Source of the DNA: Antedon mediterranea | Lineage: Eukaryota > Echinodermata > Crinoidea > Comatulida > Antedonidae | Assembly (NCBI RefSeq): GCF_964355755.1 | Contig: NC_092678.1 | Location: 16,588,922 to 16,652,921, forward strand | Reading direction: 5' to 3' | DNA: 64,000 bases | Program-made: the position numbers and the translations under genes | The notes under the pieces: generated by a model | Seen by the model: only the letters and a program-made list of their open reading frames with translations | What the model was told of the DNA's origin: nothing | Database searches by the model: none | Part shown: positions 12,101 to 45,800 of the stretch, piece after piece | How the letters are laid out: each line of letters starts with the position of its first letter | How positions within the stretch are numbered: position 1 is the first letter of the stretch

Positions 12101-14675
12101 AAACATCCCTTTTTAAAATAATGGTATCAACCAAACTCCATTTTGTAATTAATTTTTTTTCTACATTAAATGGAACTCAATACATGTTGTTTACACTGCT
12201 ATAAACAAAAACTGTATACTGTAAGTATTTTTGGTTAAAATAAGTATACAAGTTTGTACTTTTTCACTATAGAAAATCTGTGAAAAATGGCAAAAACATC
12301 AAAATTTGGATAATTGACCGTTGTCATGGCAACGGAGGCTAAAAATTGAAATGAATGTTGTAGATATGCTTTTTATTGAAATGTCTATTCATGGTAAAAA
12401 TTTGAGAGAAATCCATTTTTTTACATCTGCCACCAAATCTTTGATTTTTACAGACAATGGCTCTTAATTGTTTATGTTTCCTTGCATAGGCTTGTCTAAA
12501 AGATTGTCTCTACAGACACACATTTCTTGAATGTGACTGTTACAATTCTCGATACACTTACGATTCTGAATCGCCAGTGTGCAAAGTTGGTGTGGAAGAG
12601 GAAGGTATCACAACTATTCTTTATTTTTGTGGCGTTGTTAAAAATGATGAGTAGGCTAGGCCTACAGTACCGGTAGGCCTACTGAATTTCAGCTGTTCTC
12701 TGCATTGTCAAATAATACAAATATGTCTAAATTTGACTAAATATAACGTACGATAGAACAAAAAACAAAACATCCTAGTCAGATACAGTTTATAATAACT
12801 TATTTACTTTCATTAATGTGTTTGTCTTTTGAATACGGTATTTATTTAGAGGAGTGCTTGCTTAATACTGAAACAATGATTGCAGAGGGTAACATCAGCT
12901 GTAACTGTGGGCCTGCATGCACGTAAGTCAGTGCTTTCAAATGTCACCAGCCCACTACCATCTTTTAAAACCTGAATAATAATGTATAAGTAGACCCTAC
13001 ATTAATTGCCGTATTTACCGTTCTTTTGCTATCCTTAGCTTACCAAATCACATAATCTGAATTTCCTTACGTTCCGTCATATGGAAACAAAGCATTAGAG
13101 GAACCAATGCTCGGCTAGTGATCTGGAGGTCGTTGGTGGTTCGACTTTGACTTAAATATTCTCATAATGTACTTAGTATAAACATGGAGGAAAAAATAAT
13201 TTATTTTTTCCTCCATGGTCAGAGTAGGGCAACCATTTTTACCAATTATAATTATATTTTAAGTATAGGCCTATAGTAATAATTTCTTGTTTACGTTGGT
13301 TGTCCACAGAGAGGTATCTTACAGTACGAGCGTATTTTCATCGGCATGGCCGGGTTCAGAGTATTTGGTGAGATTTTCAATCACTTTTTCTAATAAAATA
13401 CAAACTTTTTATTTATAAAATCAATGTGATATGTGATAATTTTAGAGTATTTTGAACTTGTCAGATACAGTTGTTACTTAAATTTCTTTTTCACACATTA
13501 TTTTCACAGCCTAAAATCGTAGACAAACTTCTGAACACACCAGCAATTAGTGTAGAAGGCAACGATACCGAGAAATTCATTTAGTAAATATACCAATACT
13601 TATTTAACATTTTTTTCTTCTTCATATTTTCAGCGTTGTTTATATTTTGTTTGTTCTTTTTTATTCTCATTTGTATTCATTTTGTTTTTGTCTGTGATAC
13701 CAGTGCTGTGACAAATATAATAAACAAATAAATGTTGTCAGCATTCATGTATAATATCTAGCTAGTAGGCTAATATGATATGTACGTTATAGGTACAAAT
13801 ATGGTCCTATACCGCACAAATAGTATACTAAAATATATCCATTTTATTTATTCAATTACCATTTATTTTCTAGTGAAAACTTTGCAAAATTGAACGTTTA
13901 TTATGAAAATCTGCAATACGACTCAATCGAACAAGTAGCAACGTACACAGTAAGTTATAATATATATTAAAATCAGCTATGAACACATAGTACATTCTGA
14001 AATGCACGATATCGTACGTGTATTTCATTATTTTGACATTAATATCATCCGACATTATAATATATTACTGTTGTTATGAATTAGGAACCAGTTGATGAAA
14101 TAAAAAAAACACACAAAAACATTAATTAATGTTAATTATTTCACATCGATTATATAATAATAATAATAATAACGCAAAATGCAGGGCGCCTCTAAGAGCG
14201 CTGAACGAATAACAAAAGTAACACTAATTAATTAATGTTAAAAATGCAAATTAAAAAGGTGGCATTTGAGGAGTTGTTTGAATGTGGCGATTGATTCGGC
14301 ATTCATGATTGAGTTTGGAAGTGCGTTCCAAAGAGCATGCAGCAGCTGACTAGGAAAAGGCGCGTTGTCCATAACATTTTGTTTACGGCTTTGAGGTACG
14401 TATTTAGGCCTTGTAAGGAGAAATGATTATATAACAGCTATTGTTATTTTCTTTTTCTAAAGTTGCTATCACTTGTAAGTAATGTTGGAGGACACTTGGG
14501 TCTTTGGATTGGTATGTCGGCTTTAACGTTGATGGAATTTCTAGAGTGCATGTACGACGTGTTATACGTACTGATGTTCCGGCGAAAAAACGCGACACAG
14601 AACGTTAGCCAATCGGCTAATGGAGCTGAAAACCATTCCAGTGCGACCTTCAAGAACGATGCATTTTCACAATAG
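3123..14675 (+). CDS. DEG/ENaC-family (amiloride-sensitive type) sodium channel subunit, multi-exon
   Basis: Spliced model, with phases that join except around exon 6: 3123-3494, 3841-4022, (optional 4146-4205), 5584-5687, 6428-6591, about 8648-8676, 12490-12604, 12850-12922, 13310-13367, 13510-13583, 13874-13949, 14463-14675. Exon 1 has the first membrane segment (LFWICAFLTSFSVCVW) followed by FPAVTICN, a hallmark of the family. Middle exons give the cysteine-rich extracellular domain: FNGIPCNP, FGNCYTYN, the motif CNCGPACT, then EVSYSTSVFSSAWP. The last exon has the second membrane segment and pore with GLWIGMSALTLMEFLE, where GxS is the selectivity filter. The product should be a trimeric cation channel subunit; its gating stimulus cannot be told. 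Odd points: the segment between VPYGS (exon 6) and ACLKDC (exon 7) lacks the usual cysteine-containing residues, a 3.8-kb transposon lies there, and the exon 6/7 phases do not fit. The gene may be damaged, or a small exon was missed. The start ATG is the first in the open exon-1 frame. Confidence 0.87.
4146..4205 (+). other. Duplicated mini-exon of the channel gene (copy 2)
   Basis: A 60-nt open segment with acceptor TGTCAG and donor GTATAT encodes YIVACFNGNPCTPS. It mirrors the 3' part of the preceding exon (LLSCIFNGIPCNP at about 3985-4022). Both end in phase 2 before a GTATAT donor, so either could join the next exon (FSYVYNYLFGNC, 5584-5687). It enters in phase 2, so it could be included after exon 2 but not swapped directly for it after exon 1 without a frameshift. 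Confidence 0.6.
4651..4710 (+). pseudogene. Third, decayed copy of the channel mini-exon
   Basis: Reading from 4651 gives YNKLRCPVFNRNPCKPYYK and then a stop at 4708-4710. The core CxVFNxNPCxP matches the two upstream copies (CIFNGIPCNP, CFNGNPCTP). No good splice donor follows, so this looks like a dead duplicate exon. Confidence 0.55.
6780..7580 (-). mobile_element. Degenerate CR1/L2-like LINE fragment (end of reverse transcriptase and 3' tail)
   Basis: Read on the minus strand, broken frames show the end of a non-LTR reverse transcriptase: KFKYLGVW at about 7423-7460, then SLMECQCG, and RRYLCIMGTQIWNN at about 6955-7015, the usual terminal 'G...WN' block. A tail with CTGGGCCCTCTGGGAGAAC and a GAAGAGGTTACCCA motif follows. 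Many stops and frameshifts show it is dead. It lies inside a channel-gene intron. The same tail recurs at about 31676-31745. Confidence 0.65.
8684..12467. mobile_element. 3.8-kb TTAA-flanked element with long terminal inverted repeats (Kolobok- or piggyBac-like, non-autonomous)
   Basis: TTAA at 8684-8687 is followed by GAGCCATTGTCTGTA. The right end is CAGACAATGGCTC and then TTAA at 12464-12467. The inverted similarity extends about 500 bp inward: CCATGGCAACGG near 8830 against its inverse near 12330, and ACTGGGGTAAATTT near 9190 against AAATTTACCCCAGT near 11955. TTAA target duplication is known for Kolobok and piggyBac elements, and purine-rich GAG ends fit Kolobok better. No transposase reading frame is present, so it is non-autonomous. 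It contains a C-rich stretch (9545-9800), a smaller nested inverted repeat (10628-10712) and several degenerate copies of a unit of roughly 200-250 bp. Confidence 0.8.
10628..10712. mobile_element. Short nested inverted-repeat element
   Basis: CAGAACCTCCCGTAAGGGG at the left pairs with CCACTTACGGGAGGTT at the right, enclosing a GC-rich core (GCGGCGGCCACTT) in an AT-rich setting. The CAG..AACC end resembles ends of pogo/Tc1-type MITEs. It lies inside the larger 8684-12467 element. Confidence 0.45.
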
Positions 14676-18869: not shown

Positions 18870-19455
18870 GAAAAGTACACATGGTGAAACCACACAATTA
18901 CATATCATAGTGAAATAACATGGCTTGGTAAAATCACACGATGAATCCACATATGGATATCATGGTGAATATGGTAAAATTGAATCATTATGCAACCAAA
19001 CGGTGAAATCACATAATGAAATCATGTCATAAACTCACAAAAATGTAATGTGGTTAAACTACATATGGAATAACATGGTTAAATAACATGGTATGGTGAA
19101 ATCATGTGGTAAAATCACATGATATGGTGAAATCATGTGGTAAAATCACATGATATGGTGAAATTATGTGGTGAAATAACAGTGAAATCATGTGGTAAAC
19201 TCACACAGTTAAATCACATAATGATAGGGTAAAATCACATGGTAAAATCACATGATAGGTGAAATCATGTGGTAAAATCACATGGTTAAATCACATAATG
19301 ATATGGTGAAATCATGTGGTGAAATCACATGGTTAAATCACATAATGATATGGTGAAAACATGTGGTAAAATCACATGATGAATGAAATCACGTGGTAAT
19401 ATCACATAGTGAAATCATGTGGTAAAATCACATGATGAATGAAATCATGTGGTGA
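18870..19455. repeat. Degenerate tandem repeat built on ATGGTGAAATCACATG
   Basis: Some 585 bp of repeats of GTGGTAAAATCACATGATAT and close variants, alternating GGTGAAATCA with CATGTGGT. The unit length is irregular (about 16-40 bp) and it looks like an expanded short motif. No coding content. Confidence 0.8.
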
Positions 19456-20039
19456 AATAATTCAGAAAACAAACTACTCTAGGGCATAAAATATTGATAT
19501 AATTCACAATTCATACATGAAAATATGTACTGGACATAATAAAATCATTGAGGAATTTTGATCGAATGTATCACCCAGTATTGAAATAATACTAATTTAA
19601 CACTAAGTACAGTACACAATCTTTATACAGTATGTTTATATGTTACCTATTGCAAAGAAAAACCACTATAGAGCTCACCACATAACGATATCATTTGGCT
19701 TGTTTAAATGTTCCACCAAACTACAGTACATGTGCATAATTTCCTAAAATTCTATACATTAAATGATGTATAGTTAGAATGTAAATATAGAAAATTGTTT
19801 TTCCTAGCAGCAGTTGGCTCCGCTCAAGAAAACTTCCGTTATATCCTTATAAGCTGATAGCAACATCGTGGACTAGTGCTAAAGGTCTGTCTGCACTTTA
19901 TGTGACAAAAAATGTGATGTGCCCATGTGTGAAAATAGCGACCTTTCATGTTTTCACGATGTGCCCCAGCTGTTGAGTTTAAAAGTCATTCTGCACATGC
20001 TATGATACATACAGTATAACCATGCACAGAATGAAAGTA

Positions 20040-20475: not shown

Positions 20476-20977
20476 ATGAAATCATAATGGCTAGCTAACT
20501 TTTTTTTTAACAACCACATAGTACAGTATACTATTGATAGTATGGGATGTGATATGGTGTATTTTATGTTAATTTCATATAGGCAACTAGTATAATGTAC
20601 GTTCTTTCATAAAAATACAATTGACTTAAATCAATTAACTTTTAAGTGATGCAAAATGAGCAGAACAATTCACCTTTCACGTATTCAATGAACATTTATT
20701 TTCTACCTAATATTTTAACAGTAATAATTAAATATTTTCTATGTAAATTTTAATTATTCAATAGATAAGGATATAAAATAATAAAAGAACCATGCGAGAT
20801 CCATTTCGTTTCAATCCTCCTTGCGCCTGATTGGTAGCAGTAATCGTTCAAAGACTTGTTATAATATATACAATGTTCTTCTGTACAGTTTCAGTATATC
20901 AAGACGGTGATTTCGTTTCCGCTTAACATTTTGTGTTACAAACATAAACTTCATGGAATGACTACAACCTTTGACCC

Positions 20978-23900
20978 TTAATTCCCTCCAGTTTTTGAGT
21001 GGTTGATTAACCATTGCAATGTAATATCTAAAATCAAAAAGTTTTAGGATTAGTACATTAAAGAAATAGAAGTGTCTGAAATAACCCCCTTAAGCTCCAT
21101 CTATTCTGACGAAATTTGCTAAATAAATGAGTTTTAAAATAATGTTTAAATGAGACAAAAGTGAAGAGAGGAAGCAATACAAGAAAAGGAGTGTCCACTG
21201 TAAGTCTTAGGCTGTGTTCAGACTTTAAACTCAATTACAATGTGTAACTTAAATGACTTTTGTAGCAATAACCCGACAAACTGTTCAGGCTAAAAAACAA
21301 TTTACACATGTAAACTGAAAACATTTACCCAGCAAGGTCATATTTCATGAATCTTTTTACACTACTGTTTATTTGTTGCTTTTTGGGCTATCCTGGAAAG
21401 TCTTTTATAAATGTATTATTTGTAAATGTCCGTAATTTATGTAATATCACTTTGTATGTATTTTTTATGACGAGTTTCCAAATAAATTCAAATCAAATCA
21501 TACTTGTTTGTGGTTAAAGATGTATTGTCCCCCCGAAAAATAATTATTACATTTTTTGTTGTTGAATAGGCCATTTTAATGTCACATAATAGTTATTTCT
21601 TCAACCAAAAATTGGATTAAAAAAATGTATTTACCTAAAAAAAAATGGAATTTAAAGCAAAAAAATGGTCAAATGGCAGCCAGCCAATGGAGTTTTGGTA
21701 GAATTTAACCATTTATTATGTTATTTTAAGTGAAAACATTATTTTTTTTTCGTTTTTTTTTCTTCGGAAGTAATTATCTTTGTTAAAACTACAAAATGGC
21801 ATATTCGAGGTCTGATTTTAATAATCTTCATTTTTAATGCTTTTGGGGGACAATACATCTTTAATCAGCTTGGAGTTTGCAGGTGTAATTTAAAAATCCA
21901 CATCATGAGTTGGGGTTTTTGAAACAGCTGGTTTATCTTAAAATTTACAACACATGCGACCATTACATATGTATATTTTCCGAAATAGGCTCTTAGTCTG
22001 GAAACAATGAAACAGAGGAGGGATAATATAATAATAATAATAAACTTACCAATATTTTCTTTGTTTTTACATGATATTGAGTAGCAACAGATTTCCCTGT
22101 CTTGGATTGCAGATAAATTCATTCTTTCAATCAGTTCTTTTTCATCCAAAGCCTCTGCTAAATCTTTCTTATTTCCGAGCACAAGAACCTAAAGAAATTA
22201 ACACATAAATCAAACTATTTCATTGATTGCAAAGCATTTTTCAATTTCTGCACGTTATCATAATATGGCCATCTGAAATTGGATTGTCGTCTATTCACGT
22301 TGTGTAACCCATAGTCAGTTTGAAACTATGATTAACAGGTTTTGTACATCATAGCCAGTTTGTAACTATGCTGAACAGGTTGTGTAACCCGTAGTCAGCT
22401 TGTAACTATGGTTAACAGGTTGTGTAACCCATAGTCAGCTTGTAACTATGGTTAACAGATTGTGTAACCCATAGTCAGCTTGTAACTACAGTACAGAAAG
22501 AAAATACTGCAACTTTACCTACGAAGTAGCTTCGTAGATAGAACGTAGGCAACTTTGTTGGCTTCGTAGGTTCTATTGTTTGGCTTCGTAACCTCAATAA
22601 ACAACTTTCAATGAACTGAATTCTGAACTTCGTAGGGAGTTCGTAACCTAAATAAACAACCCTAAGATGTTCTTAGTGAAGTAAGGTGTGAAATTAATGT
22701 GTTAAATTTAACTGGCGGAGGACAAAGTTGTAAATTAATAAAAAATAAATAATATTTTTTAATCGTAATCTTTTCCTTCGTGCGTGTTTACCTACTCAAC
22801 AGCGAATATAAACATAAATTTCCCACGATGTATGACGTAGAGAGACACGATCCAACACAGGTGAACCGCAACGAACAAGCCAACTAATATAGTGAACGTC
22901 CAGTCCCATCCAGAAACGATGCCGAGAAAAAAAGATCGTAAACAATTCATTCTAAATATAGCATCAGGACGTTCAATCGGTCGCTCAAAAAGACTGCCGA
23001 CAGAAGACCGTAATGAATACAGACCTAGTTTTTTTTGGTCACATGGCATGAAACGCGATACTCTCTCTGCTTACCGCAATCTCTCACACGTTTTTTTTTT
23101 ACTCAGTACGAGCATGAGAGGGTGGCTACCGCCTGACGACGATAAAACAGTAATTAAGATCGTGTACCTGGATTTTGTGTCACATGACATGAAACATAAT
23201 ACTCTCTCTAAACTGCTCAGCTCACATGTTTTTTCCCCTCCAAATTCTGGTCGGGCCTTTTCCCGGGCCTTTTTCTTTATACATGTCGTAATCATTTTAA
23301 AAGGCCTATGTATGTTAAATCTTAATATGGAATATATATTTATTTTGCATATATTTTGTTGGTATCCTAGCCTAGTAGGTGTCGTTGTTTTTATAATTCG
23401 CTAACCCAACAAGGTAGGAATAAATAATTTATAGTGTAGGCCGCCGACTCTCTCTACGTGAGCTGAGGTCCACCGGCCCGATGTCGTTTCGTCGGCGGAT
23501 TTCCGTCCAAATTAGGATAACCGATGCGTAGGGCGGCTACCAAAATTGACCTACTATCTTTAGGTAGGATTTTAATTAGCAAACAATACATTGTTTGTTT
23601 GCATTGTCCATGCTTCTACGAACCACCCTACGATCGAGGCGTAGCCTAGATTTCATAACAATACATCGTAGGCTAAGAACAATGCATCGTAGGCTACGAA
23701 CAATACAGCGTAGGAGAGAACAATACATCGTAGGCTACGAACAATACATCGTAGGAGAGAACAATACATCGTAGGCTACAAATAATACATCGTAGGCTAC
23801 AAACAATACATTGTAGGAGAGAACAATGACCTACGTTCTACCTACGATCTACCTACAAAAGCCTACGCGTAGATATGAAGCAGTAATTTCTTTCTGTACT

Positions 23901-26900
23901 GTATGCTTAACAGGTTGTGTAACCCATAGTTACTTGTAAACTAAGCTTAACAGGTTGTGTAACCCAGTTAGTTTTTAACTATGGTTAACAGGTTGTGTGA
24001 CCCATAGCATGATTGATATACTCACAGGTATTCCTTGTAGCTGTGGTTTATCTAACAGATTGTGTAACTCGTTCCTTGCAGCTTCAAGCTTTTCATGATC
24101 AGCAGCATCTACCATATACCTACAAGTTCAATCATAATTTATTAACACATTGTTCTTAATATCTACCGACATACATTAGATGCAATTATGCTGGGCAGGG
24201 GAGGGGAGCAACAAAAACACAACCTTGAGATGTTAAATGTTGGTAAACTAACAGTAACAGGTGCAAAAAAGTGCGAGCAATGAAACAATTTACTGATGGC
24301 CCTTGGTAAAATTTGGCATTTTTCATGTGTTGGGTGCATGAAATCGAAAACAAAAGACTGTCCTACTGCTTGCAGTACAACAGACACTTACACAATACAA
24401 TTAACACCTCTGCAGTAACGTTCCCACATACTCCTGAACCGTGGCTGTCCTCCTATGTCCCATAACTGAGAGTAAAAACAAAAAAATGATTAATTAAATA
24501 TGACATGATAGTTCATTGCTTGAAACGTAAGGTAAAATAAAAGTTATATATGAACTATCCTATTATTATGCCAATAGAAGTAAGAAGAAAATGTTTTCAC
24601 TAAAAAAAAATTCATTTGTATGTACTGTAATAAGTAGAAAGTTAGAAAACAAGATTGGAAATGTCAGAAACAGAAATAAAGTAATTCAAAATGCCGACTT
24701 TTTTTTCGTCTAAATTTGTTTCATTACTTCATTTCTCTAGCCGTTGGTCACGGTTCACTGCATAAGCCGGCCAAACGTTATAGCTGCTCCTGAACTTAAC
24801 AGTACCTTGAGTTGTAACCACGTTCGTGCCCGGCCAAGGGACAGCCACCTAATGCCCGGCCCAGGGACAGCCACCTAACTTTGGGAAATGCTTACTCTGT
24901 ATCGTTTGCTGCCTCAGACCAAACCGTGTGTAAATGCGGTCTAAAACAAGCTGTAGTAATAACCTACTGTACAGGGAGGTTTCGCAATCTTACGAATACG
25001 ATAACGACAACGGATACGTCACGCACACGTATTCGTTTTTCGTAAGCCAGTAAAAATCTGTTTCGCATGGCAACGATATATTGAGGGCGCCGTCCAAAAT
25101 ATGACTGCGGTACATTTGAGCGAAGCGCAGGTACGTGTTGCTTGGTGCTTGGCTGCCTAGGCCTAGCGTAACATCAAAAGCGAGTGAAGACTTTAAAAAC
25201 TGCTATTTATCAAAATTGACCTGGCATTTTAGTAAATTACTTTAGTAAATTACTTTCAATAAAGGTATAATTATATTATAGTCATGAATCATTCCTGATT
25301 CAAATGCAAAATGTGCAAAATAGATCAAAAACTATACTCGTTTTGTAGTTACGAATATGACTGGTGATATTCGTCAACACGAATACGCTTTACGAATACG
25401 AAATGGGGATCAGCTCCAAAGTTTCACAAATGTGTGACGTATCCGTTTTCGTATTCGTAAGGTTGCGAAACCTCCCTATTATGTCAATAACTACTAAAAT
25501 ACAAATTTGTTCTCATGCATTTTTCCTTTCATCCATATGGTAGATTAACAAGGGCATTGATTATACATAATTACTGTAGCTAGGTTACTCAGTATGAAAA
25601 AATACTAATAAAACAGTCAGATAGAAGATGGAATACTGTATGATGGACCTGTAAATCAAACTGCTAGTAGTAGGTATTATACATAAAAAACATTATGCCA
25701 GATATGGGTTGCATAATTAAATAATGCATGTGTTGTAATGTATAAGTTATCATCTGATGGCAAATATGTTGCTGAAAAGGTTTTTTTTCCCCAAGGCCAT
25801 AAAATCTAGCCAATCTGAAAGTAACAACTTCATTGCTACAGTACATGCTGTAACTATGAATAAATATCACAAATTATTGCATAAAAAGTTATTGTTGGTA
25901 ATGTAATGAAAGGCAAGGAAGTCATAGGTCAAAGTTCAACATAAAGACAATGCATAAAGTATGTAGCACATGATTATTCTGTAGTCAGGCCCTACAGTAT
26001 CCAAAGTATATACATTTTAAGTTATGAAATTTAACTACAGTACCTGGAACATGCTAAGAACCGAGTCGTAAAGTCTATCAACTTATTTACCTAATGTAAT
26101 ACATGTATGTTTATAACTTGTATACTTTTTTTCTCTTATTGTATTTGTTGGTATGTTTTGTTGGTAATAAACATAATTTTGTTATGGTTTTTTTTTTGGT
26201 GTTTGTCTTTTTTTTTTGGTAGTTTTAGGGATGATTTATTGTTAATGTTAGAAAATGTTTTATTTGTGTTTTCTCTTGGTACTTTCTTTTTTTACTTTCT
26301 GAAATTATAATTAAGTTAAACCTTACCTTTATGGTAACATGACCCTTTGTGACCTTGCGCATGTTGAATCCGACAGTCGGTATCATATCTTCACAAAAAT
26401 TACCAGACTACAAAATAAAAGATTTTGTTTTAATTGTAAAGTCAAAGTTCATAAAAATAACTTTCTTAGGTGGAAATTATTTATGGACGCGTAGTATAAT
26501 AAAAAAGAGAAAAACATTTTGATGGTGAATTCAGGACAACCAAATTAATCCTAAATAAAAAAAGAATTATAGTTTCCATTGGTTGTAATGTTGATGCATT
26601 GTGACAAATATAATAATATACTGTAAGTTAAATTTACCACTAAAGCGTGTTAATATCATGCACATGACATCATTTTTAAAACCATACCAGGCGATATTGC
26701 CCCGGGGGTGTTTGTGTACAACAAAACGGGGAGGTGCAGCAGCCACTTCGAGGCATGAGGCACTTGCGCTACCCGTTTTACGGAAACCTTAATAAACTGC
26801 CAAGTTGAATATTTAAGAGTGTTTATCAGTACTCACTCAGTACAGTGAATGGAATATCATTTTTATTTCTCTCATTCAATAATATGAATAGGCCTACTTA

Positions 26901-27352
26901 TAAATTATCATAACAAAATAAAATGTGGTTTATATGACAATAAAACATCATTCAATTAATTATTGAATTGGAAAAAAGTTTGTAAATGTTTCACTGAATG
27001 AGAATGTATTGCTACAAAATAGCAGATGGCCAGGCCCCGTGTGTCCAGGAACCATAAACTATTGTGGAAGCACGAAAATCCGATTCGGCGGTTGGTATTG
27101 CCTTTTGACCCTGAAACTGTATGTATAGCCATAGGCCTACTAGGCTAGGCTAGCTACTACTAGGGCCTAGGCCTCTAGGCCTAGGCCTAGACTAGAGAGA
27201 GGCTAGCCTAGCATACGTGCATGTCTTACCGCAATTACGTTCACGAAAGTCGTTTTCCCTGAATACTGAAGACCAACAAGCGTCAATTCCATCTCTTCTT
27301 TCCAAAATAGACTTTTTAACCAGTCCAAAATTCCTCTAAAAAACGACAGCAT
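20978..27352 (-). CDS. ARL8: ADP-ribosylation-factor-like GTPase 8 (ARL8), complete, six exons
   Basis: Coding exons on the minus strand: 27352-27230, 26407-26327, 24465-24392, 24119-24026, 22188-22050 and 21027-20978. All junctions are in phase and have GT/AG borders. They sum to 561 nt, or 186 residues plus stop, the same length as human ARL8A/B as I know them. Visible GTPase motifs are the P-loop GLQYSGKT (exon 1), the switch-I threonine in MIPTVGF, the switch-[25 protein letters not shown] for guanine specificity, and SISCK near the end. The N-terminal [18 protein letters not shown] is the family's amphipathic helix, which anchors ARL8 to lysosomes without myristoylation (no glycine at position 2). 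The family recruits kinesin adaptors and the HOPS tether to lysosomes. It is transcribed away from cathepsin C, with 458 bp between start codons. Introns carry a MITE, a minisatellite and a larger transposon. Confidence 0.96.
21514..21864. mobile_element. TTAA-flanked MITE, family C copy 1 (ARL8 last intron)
   Basis: TTAAAGATGTATTGTCCCCC at the left is inverted as GGGGGACAATACATCTTTAA at the right, about 350 bp in all. Interior markers are CCATTTTAATGTCACATAA, GGCAGCCAGCCAATGG and ACCATTTATTATGT. Further copies lie at 49345-49615, 52392-52718 and 58799-59142. TTAA at both ends fits Kolobok- or piggyBac-type target duplication. Confidence 0.8.
22487..23903. mobile_element. 1.4-kb inverted-repeat element with TA target duplication
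   Basis: The left end TACAGTACAGAAAGAAAATA is mirrored by TTTCTTTCTGTACTGTA on the right, a terminal repeat of about 23 bp. TA at each border suggests a Tc1/mariner-type or similar DNA transposon. Subterminal CTACGAAG/CTTCGTAG motifs form further inverted copies. A plus-strand open frame at 22892-23404 begins [17 protein letters not shown] and is rich in basic residues. I do not recognise it; it may be a transposon-derived fragment or chance. No DDE transposase is seen. It sits in the intron between ARL8 exons 4 and 5. Confidence 0.7.
23654..23826. repeat. Tandem repeat inside the 1.4-kb element
   Basis: About eight copies of ACAATACATCGTAGGCTACG or the variant ending GTAGGAGAGA, roughly 20-22 bp each, near the right end of the transposon. 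The two variants partly alternate. Confidence 0.8.
24973..25478. mobile_element. 505-bp MITE with about 40-bp terminal inverted repeats
   Basis: AGGGAGGTTTCGCAATCTTA at the left is mirrored by AAGGTTGCGAAACCTCCCT at the right, and ACGAATACGA and CGGATACGTCAC extend the match. It lies in the ARL8 intron between exons 2 and 3 and contains no coding frame. A duplicated GGGACAGCCACCTAA lies just upstream (24838 and 24864). Confidence 0.8.
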
Positions 27353-27810
27353 TTTGAAAGATGTTCGTTTATTGCACCCTAAAGAAAATTAATCGACGAG
27401 CAACGATAGAGCACTCAGAGCAGCAGCCTTGTGTGTAAAGCTGCTGGATATAAAGAAACAACAAAAAATGCACTTCCTGTTTCAACGCGACATTCGTCAT
27501 GTGATGATGAGGTCTCCTCGTAGCCTAGCCAAATACAAGAAATTCTCTATTGATAAACGGATTTTAAATTATCTAGATATTACACTGTTTGTTGATCATT
27601 AAATTATAAAGACGAGAATTTTAAAATTTTATTTTGTATGATCTACCATTTTAAAGTTTTTTAATGGATATTTTCATTTTCATTAGATGTAATATTTACT
27701 GATTCCTCTGTCATAAATGTCACATGTTTTGCATTAAAAACCACTTGTCTTTTGTAGACTGGAGGTAGCACTAGCACTAGCACTAGCAGCACTAGTTTTG
27801 GTAGTGTTTG
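27353..27810. promoter_or_regulatory. Divergent promoter region between ARL8 and cathepsin C
   Basis: Only 458 bp separate the two start codons, so both promoters and both 5' untranslated regions must lie here unless distal non-coding exons exist. Visible candidates are CACTTCCTGT at 27471-27480, which read on the minus strand is an ETS/GABP-type ACAGGAAGTG, and GTCATGTGAT at 27496-27505. The latter is one base off the M-box core GTCATGTGAC and close to the CLEAR consensus GTCACGTGAC bound by TFEB/MITF factors. No TATA box is convincing. Both genes being lysosomal makes a shared CLEAR-like site meaningful, but this is inference. Confidence 0.55.
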
Positions 27811-30800
27811 ATGAACATGTATTCCTTATTAAACTCACTTTTGTTGGTAATTTGTCTGTGTTGCTTTACAGCAGTAAATGCAGATACACCAGCAGATTGT
27901 AAATTTGATGATTTAGTAGGAGTTTGGAAGTTTTCTGTCGGCGAAGGCGGTCATGATAATACTTTGAATTGTTCAGATCCAGGTCGGTAAACACTGTGTG
28001 TCATGTGGAGGTGGTCATGTGTGTGTGCGCACTGTTGTCTATTGATAAAAATAGAAATGAAGGAGGTTGGGTGGGGATGGGGATGGGGTGGGGTGGGGGT
28101 TAGGGTTTTGGTTGGGGTGGGGGTGGCGATGGGGTTGCGGGTGGGGATGGGGTTGGGGTGGGGGTGGGGGGACGGTTTGGGCTGTTGTCTATTGATATAA
28201 AAATAGGAATGAAGGAGGATGGCTGGTGGTGTTATTAGGCCTAAAAAAAAAAATTGTTTGTTTGCTGTCAAGTTTTTTTTTTTTGGTAGGGGGGCGGGTG
28301 GAAAAAAGTTTTTTTTTTTTTTTTTTTTTTAATGTTAATTTCTCTGTTAATTGTACGCGAATTTGAGAGTAACAAAACACACTGAATAAAACAACGAGCT
28401 CAAACATCTATTCATAATTTGTTTCACACTTTAATTCTGTTTTGGGCGCGTTAGGCCCCGTGTCTAAACTAGCCTAGGCCTGGCCTACTACTAGTACTAC
28501 ACAGTAGGTCGTTGTTAGCAGGCCTAATTAAATATTTTAATTTTTAGAAGTTAGTGTACCGTATATTTCAGTGTATAAGTCGCACCTGTGTATAATAAGA
28601 CGCACCCGACCCCTAACTGAGAGTAAAATATCGGTATTTTGTATATCGTCGATGTATAAGACGGCCGCGCCCAGCCTCAACAAGAAGGGAAGTCCCCCAT
28701 TCCGTCAGTTCTTTCTAACTTGTTATGAATGAGTTTCGCACGCCGCAACATCGAGTGACCGCACGCGTGTGTGGGCTAGCCTCGCTCTCGATCCTTTTAT
28801 CGAGAGGCGCACGTTTTCACGGACTGACAATCGTATTCGATTAGTATCTATGTATCCTAGAAGTGTGTACGCTAGGTCTATGCTATAATCAACTGGAGAA
28901 TAATAACTAGTCGAATACTGTGTACACAATGTGGTTGCCAAGAAGGGCTCGCTCGCGCTGGGGGTACGACGGTCGTGCGTATAACTATAATACTATTCCA
29001 ATCGTAAACGTCGTTTTCAAATGAAATTTTATCGGAGCGCCTAAAACAGCTCCATAATGAACAAATCTTTTCATCATATTTAGTATAAAATCACGCTAAA
29101 ATGCCTTGAAAACTAGCAGGTTGCTGTTACGCTAGTATACTGTAGCTAGGCTAGGCCTACTCTTTAGACTTTAGTAATACTAAATAGGCCTACTAGCCTA
29201 GCTAGGCTAGGCCTTACCTTAAAAAGCCCAGGCCTTACCTTAAAAAGCCCAGGCCTAGCCAACGAGGTGGCGATCTGTGTTTTGAGGCATTTATGTTCGG
29301 TGTATAAGACGCACCCTTAATTTAGAGGTTAAATTTGCGTGTCAAAAGTGCGATTATACACCGAAATATACGCTACGTTATTATTTTTATTGTTTCATCC
29401 TCGCACACTCGATTTTTACACCTTTTCGGCCAAAATAAATCATTAAAAAAACTTTTTTTTTAAAGCGCCCTCAACGTAAAAAAAAAACTTTTTCTTATTT
29501 CCGCCCCAAATTTTTGGCGAAATTAGGGGCGGCGGATGACAGCAAACAAACTATTTTTTTTTTTTGGCCTTATAATATCTTTTATTTTTAACATTCTATA
29601 AATATATGACTTAAAAAAAATGCACATACACCGTTGTTGACTAGTACTTGTCTAGGCCTACTGACGAGGCCTAGGATACGATAATAACCATTGTTTACAC
29701 TGATTATTATAATAAATGCTATTCTTCAGTATTTCTATTTACCAGGGAAGGTGAAATTATTTGTTTTTATCTTCTCAACTTTTTAGGAAAATCTGTAAAA
29801 GAGGTGTCCATAGAGCTGCTCTTTCCGGATGTCGCAATTGACCTCGACTATGGTCACCAAGGCCACTGGACCATGATCTACAACCAAGGCTTTGAAGTGA
29901 CTATCAACAACAAGAAATACTTTGCTTTTTCAAAATATGAGAAAGTTTCTGGCAAAATACAAAGCGTATGTAATGAGACGTTGCCAGGCTGGGTTCATAA
30001 TGTTGATGGCAAGGACTGGGCATGCTATACTGGCATGAAAGCAGCACCGCCCTCAGTTGTTAGGTATGCTCCTGTCAGAATTTTTAAATTATCTTTAATG
30101 GTAACATTGCCCTCAGTTAAGTATGTTCCAATCTACACAGAGCTATGGAATGCCATCACCGCCAAGAATACAATTACAAACATACAATATATTCGTGGAA
30201 ATATACAACGTACACGCAGAAACCTACAACGTACTCGCAGAAATATACAACGTACACGCAGAAATGTACAACATACTCGCAGAAATGCACAACGTACTCG
30301 CAGAAACATACAACATACTTGAAGAAAAGGACAACAAAAAGACATTCACAAAAACGTACAACGTGTTCGCTGAAACAGACAAAAACAAAAACGTACAACG
30401 AAGTCGCAACAATGAATGTGCAGTAAAATAACCATGGAATCATCCATTATATAAAGGGTATGGACATTTAGGATGACATCAAGCATTTCAAAGATAAAGA
30501 TAATGCGGGTTTTTTTTATTTATCATTTTTCTTATTTGCAAGATTATCACTTCTGCAAAATGGGCCACATCCATGTTTTTTATCAGAATCATAAATCGAC
30601 CGTATAAAAGTAAATATTTGCATTTTTCCTACCGTTGTTGGGGTCAGCTGAGTGGTCTTGGCCACGCAATAAATTTACCGCTATGGCCACCATTTTTTTT
30701 TTTTTTAAGAAGAAAAGGACAAGAAAATTGTGCAGCACGTGTTGCGAAACTACGCACGTGCACGTACGTAAATAAAACTAGTGAGACAGTAAATAGTTTG

Positions 30801-33800
30801 GATATTATACGTTTGTGGAACCAACCATGAGGAAGGTGCATCTATATAATAAAGAGAAAAAAACCTCGTTATCTTTATCTTTGAAATGCTTGATTGAATA
30901 TTATACTACAGTATTTTCATCAGTAATGTCCATACCCTTTATATAATGGACGATTCCATGGTTATTTCGTTGATATTGTACGTTTTTGTGTTTGTCTGTT
31001 TCAGCGAACACGTACGTTTTTGTGAATGTCTTTTTGTTGTTCTTTTCTTCAAGTACGTTGTACATTTCTGCGATTGTTGTACCTTTCTGCGAGTACGTTG
31101 TATATTTCCACGAATATATTGTATGTTTGTAATTGTATTTTTGGCGGTGATTGCCTTCCATACAGAGCCATTATGTTATGGCTCTGAATATACAAAGGCA
31201 ACACCGCCCTCAGTTAGGTACATTACGTCATTATATTCCATATTTGCCCATTTGAGATTATCATCACTAAATTGCTAACTATTAAAACAATGATTTCTTT
31301 TTTATTCTAGTCAGAAAACCAGACTTTATAGAAACAATCCTGAGTTTGTAGAGAAGATAAATTCAGTGCAGTCTTCGTGGAAGGCGGCGGCATACCCACA
31401 ACATGAGACATATACTCTTCAAGAAATGGTGAGACGTGCTGGAGGAACATCTTCAAAGTCTTCAAGGAAGTTGGTCACATTCTTTACTTTTAACTAGTTA
31501 TTACTGTATGACAATGTAAACATTTATGCCCAGAGAGGTATCTTTTATACAGTTTAGTAGAGTTAGAATATTTTATAATACAAGTAGATTCTTGTCATTT
31601 GATCAATGATTGGAAGATTGTGGGTCACATGATATTAAATAATTACTGTACTGTATTTGTTTGTTCGTTTGTTTTAATCTTTATACTGGGTGACCTCTTC
31701 AGTCAAAGACTGATCTCCCAGAGGGCCCAGTTGGTGATCAGTGGCTGTGATGTACTAATACACCGGGGTAACCCCCTACTCGTCTCGAAAGATGTACTAG
31801 GTTCTTTAAAGTGCACACGAGCAAGTTGTGTACTTGTGTAGCAATCTTGATTACATCATCGAGAGTCTGAAATCGTTATAATATGCAATTGAGTAACTAC
31901 AAAATTGTTTTGTGTGTTGACGATCACGTTCTATCAACCTGTAGATTACGCCGTCTACATTTACTCTACTAAACGTCCAAAATTGGAGCACTGCCTTTCC
32001 GAATGAGTTATGCCTTAGCCTAGCCTGTTCTTAACACTTTGACTGCCAGAGGTTTTTCCAGTTAGAAACTGCCACCGCCAGCGTTTTTAGCCCAATTCGA
32101 TGTTTTTATTAAAGCTGATTGAAACCATGTATGTGATCTGATTTATATGTAATTTAGACTAAAATAATCATAAAGATTTTAGCTTTACAATGGTACCAAG
32201 AACGATTTTTAAATCGCAATATGTAAATCGTAATAGTAAAATGAAAGTAACCCACTTTTTGAATTTTTCGTAGTTTCGCGCAAGAAAGTCGAGATATTCG
32301 CGATTTTGTGCAAGACATCACAATATGAAAATATCGCCCGGTGAGATCAACAAACAACGAAAAAGTTACTTACACGGCACCGATAGGCCTATAAAAACAA
32401 GTTATCACTATCGAAAAATGTATTACATTTATAAATCATAAATCTTACATCAATGTTTCGCCAAAATCCACATAGTAAAGACACCAGGCCTAGTTAACCA
32501 GGCCTAAAGTTGGTCCGGAACCGTTTTACGACTAGGGCTAGGCTAGCCTAGTACTACTAGCCTAGGCCTCCTAGGAGATAGTAAACTGATAATAACCATA
32601 CCATTTCAAAACAAGTTTGTTGCATGAAACTCGGTAACTTTCAGTAAAACACCAAAACAATTAGGGTATACATACAATAATAAAATTAAAGACTCATATT
32701 GAAAATGACTCCATTATTTTTTATTCAGATAACAAACAAACATGTCAATCCACAAAAACCTTTGTAATGCTTCGGCGGCATAGCTAGCGCGCGACCGATA
32801 CACAATGCGCCAAGCCATCGCTCTACGAGCTACTGTGATGCGCGGTGTTTGTTATTTCGACAGGTACCATTTTGACAGTCGTTCGTAACCAGATTAGTTA
32901 CTTTCAAATTGTAAAATATTAACGGTCCAGACCGAATATAGTGTTCATATTTATAGTATATACAATAATTAACCTATCTACCGGATTTCGTAAAAAAACA
33001 CAAAAAACGAAGATCTTCGTTTTTGGCAGTCAAGCGTTGTGTTTCCAAAAACGAAGCTCTTCGTGTTTGGCAGTCAAAGTGTTAAAAGCTTTTTCATTTA
33101 TTTATTCGACACAATCGGCGCCATGACACGAGAGTGTCCGCAACCCCTAGCTGGTGTGTTTAAAACAAATAATGTATGTTTTATATTCATGAAATGAGGC
33201 AAATCTTTTAATACGGTGAAAGATTAAATGTTCTAACTGTATTCTCACCTCATTAAATTATTTACCCCATTCCACTCATAAACATTAATTATTGTAATAA
33301 TGTATACTATTGACTGTTGCAGTTTACATGTAAAATCTTGCCATTCTGTACATGTAGAAATAACACTATGTGTGTTTGTTTTGTTTACACGCGTAAAATA
33401 TGTGTACATATAATTGGTAAAATGTTAACACAAAATAACCTATAAAAATGCATGCCAAGTTTCATCAACCCTTGTGTATTTTCAGACGTTTGGCATCGGC
33501 AAAAGTAAAACCTGAAGTAGCAAAGATTGCTAGCCAGTTACCGATGGAGTTCGACTGGAGAAACATGGCTGGACAGAACTTTGTAACGCCTGTTCGCGAC
33601 CAGGGTGGCTGTGGTAGCTGTTTTGCTTTTGCATCTATGGCTATGTTAGAAGCCCGATTGAAAATTGCAACTAATAACACCATAAATAAGGTGTTTTCAC
33701 CTCAGGATGTAGTAGATTGCAGTGAATATGCCCAAGGTAAGATATCTTATTATTTTTATTTGTTTGAAATCTTACACAGACGTATAAGACAAAAATAGAA

Positions 33801-35893
33801 ATATATCTATATATACATTTACAATACATTAGAATAAATTCTAAAGCACCTGTTGATAAACTGAAAATGTATTCATTTTGAAACGATAAAGATGAGGAAA
33901 TCTGGGTGAATGAGAAAATGATATTCAAACTCAACAATTAACAACAATTAACAATTAAGAGGCTTTTTCAAAAGGTATAATTGTTCAAATGGAACAAAAA
34001 TGTAAATATAAAATTGACGGGAGGAGATCAAAAAGTGAAAATGTACCTCTAAAAGCGGCCAATACCTAAATTTGAAAGAAGAGAACAGTATAAATTGTAT
34101 CGGCAGACTGCTGCAAGCTTCTACGTTATTCTGTAGGTTCCCCCCCCCCCCCAACATATTTTCTACTAACCATGCTTGAAGAAGCATATATCCATTGTTT
34201 ACTGCAGATGCCGATTGCCTAAGATTATTTTAGATAGCACCCTCTATAGTTTGATGTAGTTAAATTGTTTAAGGGCCCTCTCTGGCAATGCTTCCATAAA
34301 TCGTTCAGATAGTTCACTTTTTCATCTTGTAACCTCTTGATGTCTGTAGAATGCTTTTATTACCGTATTCATGTTATATGGTATGCCACTATTGGAAAGA
34401 ATCAGGACATTGTAATTGTTTGGAGTTTAGTTCTTTTATCAGTCACTACTATATTTAGTGTTAGCAAATTAACAAATGACCCTCGGCCCCCACATGATGT
34501 CTGGTTTCTTACTTGGCAAAATAGAATTTTGCTGAGCATATAGTTCTTGCTTTGTTTGTTTGTTCGCATTATAGCATCCTCATTTTTAGTTGCCTGGAAG
34601 CGACTCTATAGTTCACTATGTCGGTCAGTCTGTCTGTCGGTCCGGTATGTGTTTTATCGCTTTCTGACCTTATCTTGATATCAGTTTAATCTAGCTAAGT
34701 CAATTTTTCACAGTATATTATTCCTTATGGCCAGGAATCGATGTGGTTATGTTTTCACGGTGCGCAATAAAAAATTATGCGGTCTACGCACGATTTAACG
34801 AAATCACAATTGTAATCATATCTTCACAACCATGCATCACAATTAAATAAAATTTGGTACTCATAAATTTCAGGGCATAAATCATGATATGGTAATACAA
34901 TTACGTGCGTAGCGCATGTAACGCATGCGTACGCGCGCTTAATATTTTCAAAATTTATTTTCGATGAAATAAGAGTACGTTTCAGGCAATTTTAAGCGTT
35001 TACAAAATTGCCATGAGTGCGCTGATTTTTGCGCGCGCACTGCACGTTAAATGTTATTGCGCACTCTTTTTGCCCGATTTCTGTTTTCTTGACTTACTTT
35101 TCAACTCGAAATTACGTTATACGAGCACGTCAAAAGTGACAGGCTACGCACGTGTAAATTAACAAAATATAACTGTTTTTAAACAAGTAATTTTCCCGGA
35201 AAATTGATATATTGGTTATGTCACAAAAGCTTATCTATCTTCAAGCTGAAATATTAAATAGCATGCCCTCTGTATTCTTTAACATAAGCCGAAAGTAGTG
35301 AGCCCTCTATCTCTCTATATTTTGCCAAGTACTTCACTCAGTTTCTGAGTGCTTTCATTTTGATATTTTGAAGGAACTACATATTCTTTATTGTAGGATG
35401 TGATGGAGGCTTTCCGTATTTGATAGCAGGGAAATACGCACAGGATTTTGGGGTTGTTGAGGAGTCCTGCACACCTTACCTTGGCAAAGATAGCTCATGT
35501 ACCAAAAACAGCTGCAAGCGTTACTATGCTTCTGATTATTCGTACGTCGGAGGCTTCTACGGGGCTTGCAACGAGGCACTGATGCGTATCGCTCTTGTGA
35601 AGAATGGACCGCTGGCTGTGGGTTTTGAAGTTCTAGACGATTTCTTTCAATACAAAAGCGGGATATATCAGCACACGGGTTTACAAGACAAGTTCAACCC
35701 GTTTGAAGAAACAAACCATGCGGTGTTGGTTGTTGGTTATGGCACCGATGCAGCTTCTGGCTTGAAGTACTGGACAGTGAAGAACAGCTGGGGAGATGGA
35801 TGGGGTGAAGATGGATACTTTAAGATCATACGAGGTGTTGATGAGGTTGGCATTGAAAGCATGGCATTAGATAGCTTCCCAATAATTCCATAA
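27811..35893 (+). CDS. CTSC: Cathepsin C (dipeptidyl peptidase I), complete, five exons
   Basis: Coding exons 27811-27982, 29787-30063, 31311-31469, 33486-33736 and 35397-35893 join in phase to 1356 nt, or 451 residues; human CTSC has 463. The signal peptide (residues 1-24, ending AVNA) is followed by DTPADC, so the exclusion domain starts with the Asp that in this enzyme holds the substrate amino group. The exclusion domain continues through YNQGFEV and [10 protein letters not shown]. The papain-like domain has [14 protein letters not shown] with catalytic Cys248, [12 protein letters not shown] with His394, and [10 protein letters not shown] with Asn416. [18 protein letters not shown] is typical of cathepsin C. 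It removes N-terminal dipeptides in lysosomes and activates other proteases. The start is the ATG at 27811; an in-frame ATG two codons on is possible. The exon 3 donor (AA|GTTGGT) is weak but required by phase. Introns hold several transposons. Confidence 0.95.
28056..28180. repeat. G-rich minisatellite in CTSC intron 1
   Basis: Repeats of GGGGATGGGG, GGGGTGGGG and GGGGTTGGGG over about 125 bp on the plus (transcribed-sense) strand. Many runs of four or more G make G-quadruplex formation in the intron RNA plausible. The proline/histidine open frames on the other strand are by-products. Confidence 0.8.
28238..29571. mobile_element. 1.3-kb inverted-repeat element in CTSC intron 1 with a second element nested inside
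   Basis: The outer ends share TTTGTTTGCTGTCA next to an A run and GGCC: left at about 28238-28275, right at about 29521-29571 in inverse. Poly-T/poly-A and GGGGCGG blocks continue the mirror. Inside lies a different inverted-repeat element at 28558-29377. No transposase frame is seen. Confidence 0.65.
28558..29377. mobile_element. Nested element with GTGTATAAG terminal repeats
   Basis: The left end has TATATTTCAGTGTATAAG, then TCGCACC. The right end is the inverse, GTGCGATTATACACCGAAAT, then ATA. Internal GTATAAGACGCACCC occurs on both flanks. It lies wholly within the 28238-29571 element, so it inserted later. Confidence 0.65.
30130..31180. mobile_element. Large inverted-repeat element in CTSC intron 2 with 21-bp internal repeats
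   Basis: The left arm (about 30140-30515) and right arm (about 30862-31180) are inverse copies: GAATACAATTACAAACATAC against GTATGTTTGTAATTGTATTT, and CCATTATATAAAGGGTATGG against CCATACCCTTTATATAATGG. The left arm has six 21-bp repeats (ACAACGTACACGCAGAAACC type, 30206-30330), fewer on the right. Because the period is 21 bp the repeats are open in several frames, and the short proteins predicted there are artefacts. The loop (30516-30861) is unique. Confidence 0.75.
31676..31745 (-). mobile_element. CR1/L2-like LINE 3' tail fragment
   Basis: On the minus strand it reads CTGGGCCCTCTGGGAGATCA, then a GACTGAAGAGGTCACCCAG motif, matching the tail at about 6795-6850. Only the 3' end is present, a typical 5'-truncated LINE insertion. 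Confidence 0.55.
32031..33085. mobile_element. piggyBac-like non-autonomous element, TTAA-flanked, in CTSC intron 3
   Basis: The left border TTAACACTTTGACTGCCAGA and the right border TGGCAGTCAAAGTGTTAA are inverse copies with a TTAA at each side (32031-32034 and 33082-33085). Inverted CACTTTGACTGCC ends plus a TTAA duplication are typical of piggyBac-type MITEs. Near the right end the motif ACGAAG..CTTCGT..TTTGGCAGTCAA occurs twice. No transposase is visible. Confidence 0.8.
34590..35330. mobile_element. CpG-bearing repeat element in CTSC intron 4
   Basis: The left border CTATAGTTCACTATGTCGG, with TCAGTCTGTCTGTCGG following, is loosely mirrored by the right border GTGAGCCCTCTATCTCTCTA. The core is rich in CGCGCG-type runs (GCATGCGTACGCGCGC, TTGCGCGCGCACTGC), unlike its AT-rich surroundings. 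It resembles the 38905-40475 element in composition and shares the CGACATAGTGA border with the modules near 43988, 48975 and 58436. Confidence 0.5.
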
Positions 35894-42819: not shown

Positions 42820-45800
42820 TTAAACGTTTATGTACATTGGGAACTGTCTCCTTCGCTTACTGTTCAAGCATATACGCCAGATAAACATAACAAACCAAGG
42901 CATAAAAAGAGCTAGGCCCATTCCGCCAGATGTTACAAGACTGAGAGAAATCCATATATCGTCTGTAATGTTGCCTCCTGTTCCGCGAATGTGGGAAACT
43001 AAGAGATATACACCGACGCCTGCCACTCCACCAAGAAGTAGAAGAATTATTAAAGCTGATATAAGTGTGTTTTCTTCTGATGTCTGAAAAATAAAAATGT
43101 TGCAATGAATAAAAGTTACATTAATTATAATAAAAATCTACATACATTCTTTAAATTTTCGATTAGCATCCTTTTCACTTAACATCCGTTTTCCTGTACC
43201 ATACTAATTGCATCATTAGGCAAGATGCTTTACTCTCATTACCTTACCTAAGAGTCCCAAATGATCAGCAAGTGCTGGATGGATCACCCTCATTAAATAT
43301 GGTAAAAAACACTACATGAAATCAAATCAGGCCTATTACTTACCGTCAACCGTGGAAACTTCATATATTTTTTATCATACTGCTTATTGCATATTTCACA
43401 TATATTCGAGCCTTTTGTTCGTGCCCATCTCTGAAGACAATTAATATGAATATATTTGGAAGAACCAGCGCAACCACACGGCGATATCAGTTTGTCTTTT
43501 CCTAAACAATGAAAATAACATGTAGTTAATAAATGGTATGTCGAGAACTTACGCTATAAATTCGACCATTCACTTTATAATCATCAAGATCTTTTGTTTT
43601 TAAATTGTGACCCGGTGAATATATCCTGGATTTATAAAGCGCCTAATGCGAAACCTATAAGGGATGTAAATATTATTCCCAGGTCATTTTTTAAATCAAA
43701 CATGTATTAAAACATACTTTCACATCTAATCATTGCAAGGTTGTGTCTTGACCTAACCGGGTACTCATTTCTACACCTGGGCAGAGGGAGAGGCAACATA
43801 AGTGATTTGCCTAAAGAAGGCAATGCGACAAAAGCATTGGATTCGAACCAACGATCTCACGATTCGTAGAACTGCAACAAACATCGAAGAAAATCAGGGT
43901 TGTCTATTCCTAAGAGACCATGTCAAAATTATTTTTCTGAATAACTACACTTTGTTTAAGCTTTATCCAATTGATTAGCAAAAAAACAAGGCCATATAAA
44001 TGGCTGCAGTCGCGTGCTCAAGTTAGTGTTTACCGACCGACCAACCGACCGACATAGTGAGCTGTAGCGACAAAAAATAATACGGTAAATATGCCTACAA
44101 GTCAAAAGAATTCGTATTGAAATAAAATAAATGAAAGAATAATAAAGCAAGCGCGAAACGTTTGCGAAACGTCGTAGACCTAGTAAATTCTTTTTATTTT
44201 GTACTCATCTAGCTATCGTACTTCATTGGAACAAGAAAACAGACAATAATTATAATGCGATAATAATAGTAATAATAATAATAACATAAAAATGAATTTT
44301 AACAATTTTAATCAGAACAGTATCACAATTTCGATTTTAATGTCTTAGTAAATGTTAACGTCCTTTTTTTGTGGCCAGGTTAATAGTTTCTTTGTTATTA
44401 TACTTATACTGATTTTATAATATTTTACGACTTATTGATGTTCAGAATGAGATTTTAATGTTTTTAACTGTTTTTTATTATTGTACAATTTGTAGAATGA
44501 ATAGACCAGAATATATATATATAATTGGGATCAAAATGAATTTATTTCAAGAATCAAACTTACCTTTGCTCCCCATATTTTCCTGACATATACGACATAA
44601 AGGTATATCACTATTATTCTCTGTTAACATTTCCTCCAAATCAGATGCAGTCGTAAGATTCGAACCCGTATTTTGTTGAACATTCTCAATGTCGCTAATT
44701 GCTATTTCACCGTTCGGCTTTTCCGCAACTTTGATGATTTGTGTTTTTGAATTATGGAAACCAACCTGTGAAGATAAAACATGATACAATTCAAACACAA
44801 TTTTATATTACGGTATTCCGTCATCAAATATTTAAGAGGCCTTCGAGAAAATTATATAAAACTTCTCCAGGGAAAGAATCAGTTGTTTTTCTAACGAAAT
44901 GGGTTAGGCGTCTTTTAAGGGAAAGGGCATCAGTAAGAATTTCAATAATAAAGATTAAATAACCAGTAAACTTAAAAATAGAAAAATTATATTATCATAA
45001 GTGAAATGTGCCATTGTCGATAATCATATTTTGTCAGAACATCCGTTACGTACGTTTTATTTGTATAATATTTATTGTATAATATTGTACAAATTTTATT
45101 TGTACAATATATAGTACTGTACTGTACTATTATTTGCAATATTTTGATTTTCTTTTCATCAAGGAGATGAAAGAAATCTAAATTAACGCTCATTTCTGAA
45201 GTTTGTACTGTCAACAAATCAATCAAAATCGAAAATTAAATTTGTGATGATGATTAATCATCATTCAATCAATCATTAAGCAGAAAAAACACACCCCCAC
45301 TCCCCTCCCCTACATTTCGAATAGATAGAACATATATCAAAATCCCGGATCTGTCACTGTAAACATATCTCTAACATGCTACCTTACCTAGCAATGATTC
45401 GGAATGTATAAATGACGTATATTAAGTCATGCTTGAATGCATGGTCAGTGTGATGCAACGCATGCATTCTCTTTTCCTGGAAAATGAATTCTGTTTGCAA
45501 AATACATATAATGATAGACATTTTTCTGGCAATGGTTGCCTATATTGTGGGAAGCCTAATGTAATTCGTGAGATTGTAATGTTCAAATTGAGTTCTTTGC
45601 AGATTTGGAATCTTTAGTCTAGGGTAGGTCTAGAATTAATTGAAATTGGGGGCCAATTTTTCCTACAATTTTGGATTTCAAAATGGCGCCTATTTAATTG
45701 TATGATCATTATCTGCCAGCATTTTCATTCATTTAGTAAAACAAAACTTTTAATAAAACAAAATGTATTAAAAGGTAAAGTATGTTATAAAACAATATTA

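Follow-up and report, generated by a model that had tools for sequence, protein, structure and literature searches.

A divergent ARL8 and cathepsin C gene pair with a probable MiT/TFE site in the gap between its start codons

Introduction

MiT/TFE proteins bind the sequence TCATGTG, unlike other bHLH-Zip factors (review PMC9363479), and MiT control of V-ATPase and lysosomal genes has been established in flies, other insects and worms (PMC7815692, PMC10452791). In the literature we found nothing specific on ARL8 or cathepsin C (CTSC) as targets of CLEAR-type regulation, and nothing specific on divergent TFEB promoters.

The locus described here lies in a window of 64 kb, which is the whole stretch of DNA that was analysed. 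ARL8, a lysosome-positioning GTPase, and CTSC, a lysosomal protease, point away from each other across a short gap that holds an E-box of the M-box type. The genome also carries a MiT/TFE gene, found on the same chromosome as the pair: Pfam MITF_TFEB_C_3_N scores above its cut-off, and the bHLH exons encode the diagnostic basic region, one exon reading KGTILRSSVDYIKKLQRDQ. If the E-box is a MiT/TFE site, the same word is predicted close to the starts of other lysosomal genes of this genome but not of non-lysosomal ones, and this prediction was tested within the assembly.

Methods

The assembly searched totals 354 Mb and has 11 large contigs. V-ATPase subunits were located by Pfam and by a chimeric bait of conserved V-ATPase/RagC N-terminal segments, and papain-type cathepsins were located by Pfam. 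The lysosomal set consisted of 19 V-ATPase, Rag and cathepsin genes, with ARL8 and CTSC excluded from the count. The 21 controls were proteasome genes, Arf/Ras-type GTPases related to ARL8, one TINAG-like gene (L025) and one mitochondrial ATP synthase c gene (L023); the last two came up in the lysosomal searches but, not being lysosomal, were counted as controls.

We placed each start codon by reading the first exon of the gene, so that all distances run to ATGs and not to transcription starts. Some lysosomal and control genes were dropped when the first exon could not be assigned; a second V1B-like copy (L057), V-ATPase c'' (L022) and the C1 peptidases L027 and L029 were left out for want of an assignable start codon. 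The lysosomal set was hand-picked from known MiT target classes before counting, while the distance cut-offs were viewed afterwards, and several are therefore given. The strict octamer class TCAYRTGA, as used here, leaves out the CATATG core.

Results

The gene pair

The initial annotation had named the two genes as ARL8 and cathepsin C and had placed them on either side of a 458-bp gap, and both points are borne out (Table 1). The spliced minus-strand protein matches ARL8A/B at E 1e-107, with other ARFs appearing only from about 1e-31. Its plus-strand neighbour is a full-length match to dipeptidyl peptidase 1 (cathepsin C) at E 1.8e-165, with the signal peptide and exclusion domain first and the NSWG motif further on, and the cathepsin C exclusion domain (Pfam) is found at a single locus in the whole genome. 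As read from their exons and spliced proteins, both genes are intact and their identities unambiguous. They stand head to head with starts less than 1 kb apart, at 458 bp from ATG to ATG, a distance between start codons and not between transcription starts. The human orthologs sit on different chromosomes, so the pairing is not universal.

Table 1. Coordinates of the features discussed, as positions of the window unless a contig is given
Feature	Coordinates	Strand	Remarks
ARL8 gene	20961..27352 (end coordinate approximate)	minus	exons read from sequence, spliced-protein match
ARL8 start codon	27350-27352	minus	
ARL8 coding exons	27352-27230, 26407-26327, 24465-, about 24120-24040, about 22188-22050, last near 21019	minus	
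Divergent intergenic gap, presumed promoter region	27353..27810	no strand	33% GC
ETS-type site CACTTCCTGT (reverse ACAGGAAGTG)	27471..27480	plus	role unsupported by promoter comparison
M-box / CLEAR-type site GTCATGTGAT	27496..27505	plus	perfect RTCAYRTGAY
Strict octamer TCATGTGA	27497-27504		145-152 bp upstream of ARL8 ATG, 307-314 bp upstream of CTSC ATG
Second, weaker M-box-like site GTCACATGTT	27719..27728	plus	83-92 bp upstream of CTSC ATG
Cathepsin C (dipeptidyl peptidase 1, CTSC) gene	27811..35893	plus	exon reading, spliced-protein match, Pfam exclusion domain
CTSC start codon	27811	plus	
CTSC coding exons	27811-27982, about 29788-30065, about 31311-31467, about 33490-33735, about 35395-35893	plus	
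Two M-box-like sites, GTCATGTGGA (28000-28009) and GTCATGTGTG (28014-28023)	28000..28023	plus	just inside CTSC intron 1
Minisatellite, units like AAATCATGTGGTAAAATCACATGATATGGTG	about 18980-19470		about 1.5 kb past ARL8 3' end
Exons reading like a DEG/ENaC (ASIC-type) channel	3069-3509, 12747-12923, 14427-14672	plus	ORF inspection only
Exons reading like a MARCH-type membrane RING-CH ubiquitin ligase	42823-44807	minus	ORF inspection only
Long open frames resembling the end of a non-LTR retroelement	62887-63998	minus	ORF inspection only
V-ATPase a-subunit paralogs, head to head	G000:C2:38908336-38909842		1,505 bp apart
Tandem array of cathepsin L-like genes	G000:C7:6594123-6774017	plus	

The gap and its sites

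The base composition of the gap is uneven, with 38-48% GC at 27403-27552 and 18-22% at 27553-27702. The AT-rich part contains upstream ATGs, so a CTSC transcript that began near the M-box would need to be spliced. A fair to good 3' splice site is present at 27757 (TTGTCTTTTGTAG), and no convincing donor for a CTSC leader was seen in the gap; taken together with the upstream ATGs, this suggests that CTSC transcription may begin near 27740. The gap is single copy in the genome and shows no repeat match, and its single-copy state rules out a repeat origin for the M-box. No Rfam families were found in the window.

Both motifs that the initial annotation had reported in the gap are present at the positions it gave. 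The E-box GTCATGTGAT agrees with the MiT/TFE consensus including its TCA and TGA flanks. Its core is CATGTG, that is, an M-box, and the strict CLEAR sequence GTCACGTGAC with a CACGTG core is absent from the gap. Three further sites, GTCACATGTT, GTCATGTGGA and GTCATGTGTG, had not been listed before and agree with the octamer at seven of eight positions (TCA at 27720, 28001 and 28015). The first of these is a half-site for CTSC at -91 and shares the form of GTCACATGTC, which lies 48 bp upstream of cathepsin F in the same genome; the other two adjoin a G-rich low-complexity stretch. With 0.21 expected, the four M-box-like sites found across 678 bp make a striking number, but the count is post hoc. 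The ETS-type site had been credited with a role in the divergent promoter, and this suggestion finds no support: the perfect octamer class occurs in 1/19 lysosomal and 1/21 control promoters, so that ETS sites are not enriched among the matched promoters.

Taken alone, the gap motif is weak evidence (p about 0.02), because many other coincidences could have been noticed in the window. Among dinucleotide shuffles of the gap, 2.6% contain a strict TCAYRTGA and 0.7% contain RTCAYRTGAY. The strict octamers (TCACGTGA, TCATGTGA or TCACATGA) number nine in the 64-kb window, five of which fall in a minisatellite; the 62.8 kb that remain when the gap and the minisatellite are set aside hold three, or 0.02 expected per 458 bp. 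The minisatellite itself packs 16 M-box-like sites into 490 bp and inflates E-box counts in the window; it could act as a sink for MiT/TFE protein.

Comparison with other promoters of the genome

It is the genome-internal comparison that makes the motif evidence strong. A strict TCAYRTGA lies within 250 bp upstream of the ATG in 8/19 lysosomal genes and 1/21 controls (Fisher p = 0.006). Widening the limit to 500 bp gives nine lysosomal genes against one control (p = 0.002), and at 700 bp the counts are ten and one (p = 0.0009). Against the background of the same loci, where 5.4% of 250-bp windows hold such a site, 8/19 has a binomial p = 3e-6. A count of 7-mers in the 300 bp upstream, made with no motif chosen beforehand, ranked CATGTGA/TCACATG first of 3,074 words, at 8/19 lysosomal genes against 1/54 background tiles (p = 1.8e-8), a result that holds when corrected for how many words were compared, and TCAYRTGA was likewise first of 384 degenerate palindromic octamers. 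The core of most lysosomal-promoter sites seen is CATGTG, and the exact decamer GTCATGTGAT is also found upstream of V-ATPase d (V0d) and RagC. The only control with a site is a proteasome gene (PSMA3-like).

The eight strict sites lie at -37 (V1B), -85 (V1F), -108 (CTSZ), -128 (V1E), -130 (V0d), -157 (V0c), -196 (CTSL) and -238 (RagC). At -152, the ARL8 site falls in the middle of this range of 37-238 bp, whereas the strict site of CTSC, at -314, falls outside it. The earlier reading of the E-box as CLEAR/M-box-like thus gains from both the enrichment of its site class in the genome and the ARL8 distance. The rule is not universal, since 11/19 lysosomal genes have no strict site within 250 bp; some of these carry one further off, perhaps behind introns of the 5' leader.

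Several other M-box arrangements were observed. A cathepsin L on contig C7 has three sites within 76 bp. A cathepsin B-like gene (L030) has four CLEAR/M-box sites (ATCACGTGCA, ATCACGTGAG, ATCACATGTG and ATCACATGAC) in about 60 bp, about 2.0 kb upstream of its ATG, and this is the densest cluster seen outside satellite sequence. V-ATPase C has one site 1.2 kb upstream. The distant sites of these last two genes would fit first introns placed in the 5' leader. Two V-ATPase a-subunit paralogs (L045 and L047) form a second divergent lysosomal pair in the genome, and between them lie two M-boxes, ATCATGTGAT and ATCACATGAT, 36 bp apart.

Discussion

The enrichment of the site class, the presence of a MiT/TFE gene and the distance to the ARL8 start codon together make a MiT/TFE site the best explanation of GTCATGTGAT, which is very probably part of an ordinary CLEAR-type regulon. 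We consider it fairly likely that two divergent lysosomal genes have their promoter region in the gap, with a MiT/TFE site there that raises ARL8 and probably CTSC too. Under this model, rising lysosomal demand would bring the MiT/TFE factor into the nucleus, where it would bind TCATGTGA about 150 bp upstream of the ARL8 start codon. Transcription of ARL8 would then go up together with that of the V-ATPase and cathepsin genes that bear the same site at the same distance, and CTSC would probably be raised as well, through this site and the weaker one at 27719. What the sequence shows is the genes, the sites, the MiT/TFE gene with its bHLH and the enrichment of the site class; the binding, the activation and the sharing by both genes we infer. 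The ARL8-CTSC pair is probably regulated along with the other lysosomal genes. Action of the M-box on both genes, CTSC included, is plausible, and the assignment appears firmer for ARL8 than for CTSC, because the strict site is 314-307 bp from the CTSC ATG and an unspliced leader would hold several ATGs.

That same asymmetry is what gives weight to a narrower model, in which the M-box serves ARL8 only, CTSC uses a promoter of its own near 27730-27760, perhaps with the weaker 27719 site, and the head-to-head layout is incidental. For ARL8 the strict site lies at a usual spacing, but for CTSC it does not; between it and CTSC come 150 bp of AT-rich sequence that include upstream ATGs, and cathepsin F has a lone GTCACATGTC near its ATG that resembles the near site of CTSC. 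Yet sites at -450/-486 (V-ATPase a) and at -629 (a cathepsin L) exist in the genome, so that -314 is not out of range for CTSC, and the 3' splice site in the gap would permit a spliced leader, though no good donor was seen. On balance, we regard an M-box confined to ARL8 as possible but somewhat unlikely. A bolder proposal goes the other way: a shared bidirectional CLEAR promoter would couple a lysosome-positioning GTPase to a lysosomal protease in this animal lineage, as one of a class of divergent M-box-sharing pairs, including the V-ATPase a paralogs, whose members stay together through selection on the sharing. We hold this stronger version to be unlikely.

By chance, an E-box of this kind would arise in 2-3% of gaps of such composition, and a 64-kb window offers many coincidences from which this one was chosen. 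A chance E-box without function is nevertheless an improbable account, given that no word is more enriched than this class of site in the promoters of functionally matched genes of the genome and that the gap site lies at the same distance from its start codon as the lysosomal sites do. It is more improbable still that the E-box answers to another bHLH-Zip factor (USF, MYC/MAX or MLX/SREBP) and marks general rather than lysosomal genes. E-box factors do overlap in specificity generally, and one proteasome gene bears a site; but a CATGTG core with T and A flanks is assigned to MiT/TFE in the literature (PMC9363479), and most lysosomal sites have this core while the controls, at 1/21, are without them. 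The preferred reading therefore remains that of a MiT/TFE site acting on ARL8 and probably on CTSC.

The comparison shows that sequence alone is enough to read the lysosomal MiT/TFE code of an animal genome that lacks annotation, largely in the form of M-boxes, and it places ARL8, a gene for lysosome positioning, in the predicted MiT/TFE set. Were the promoter shared, the content of lysosomes and their transport would be set jointly by one site, and divergent pairs would offer a simple setting for studying the action of a single MiT site on two genes.

Relation to known systems

Vertebrate ETS-type bidirectional promoters resemble this locus in having head-to-head genes less than 1 kb apart with an ETS-type site, of which there is one here; they differ in that the matched promoters of this genome are without ETS enrichment. 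The mammalian TFEB/TFE3 CLEAR network (GTCACGTGAC) likewise has a 10-bp E-box flanked by TCA and TGA, near and upstream of lysosomal and V-ATPase genes, and a MiT/TFE gene is also present in this genome. The mammalian consensus has a CACGTG core, whereas the gap and most of the lysosomal promoters examined here have CATGTG, and the regulation in this genome is a predicted one. The MITF M-box (TCATGTG) is matched exactly within TCATGTGA; its classical use is in pigment-cell genes, while here it marks lysosomal genes. The dCLEAR/Mitf control of V-ATPase genes in Drosophila and other insects (PMC10452791) also combines sites upstream of most V-ATPase subunits with a single MiT gene. In the present genome, which belongs to a different animal group, the sites extend also to several cathepsins, RagC and the ARL8/CTSC pair.
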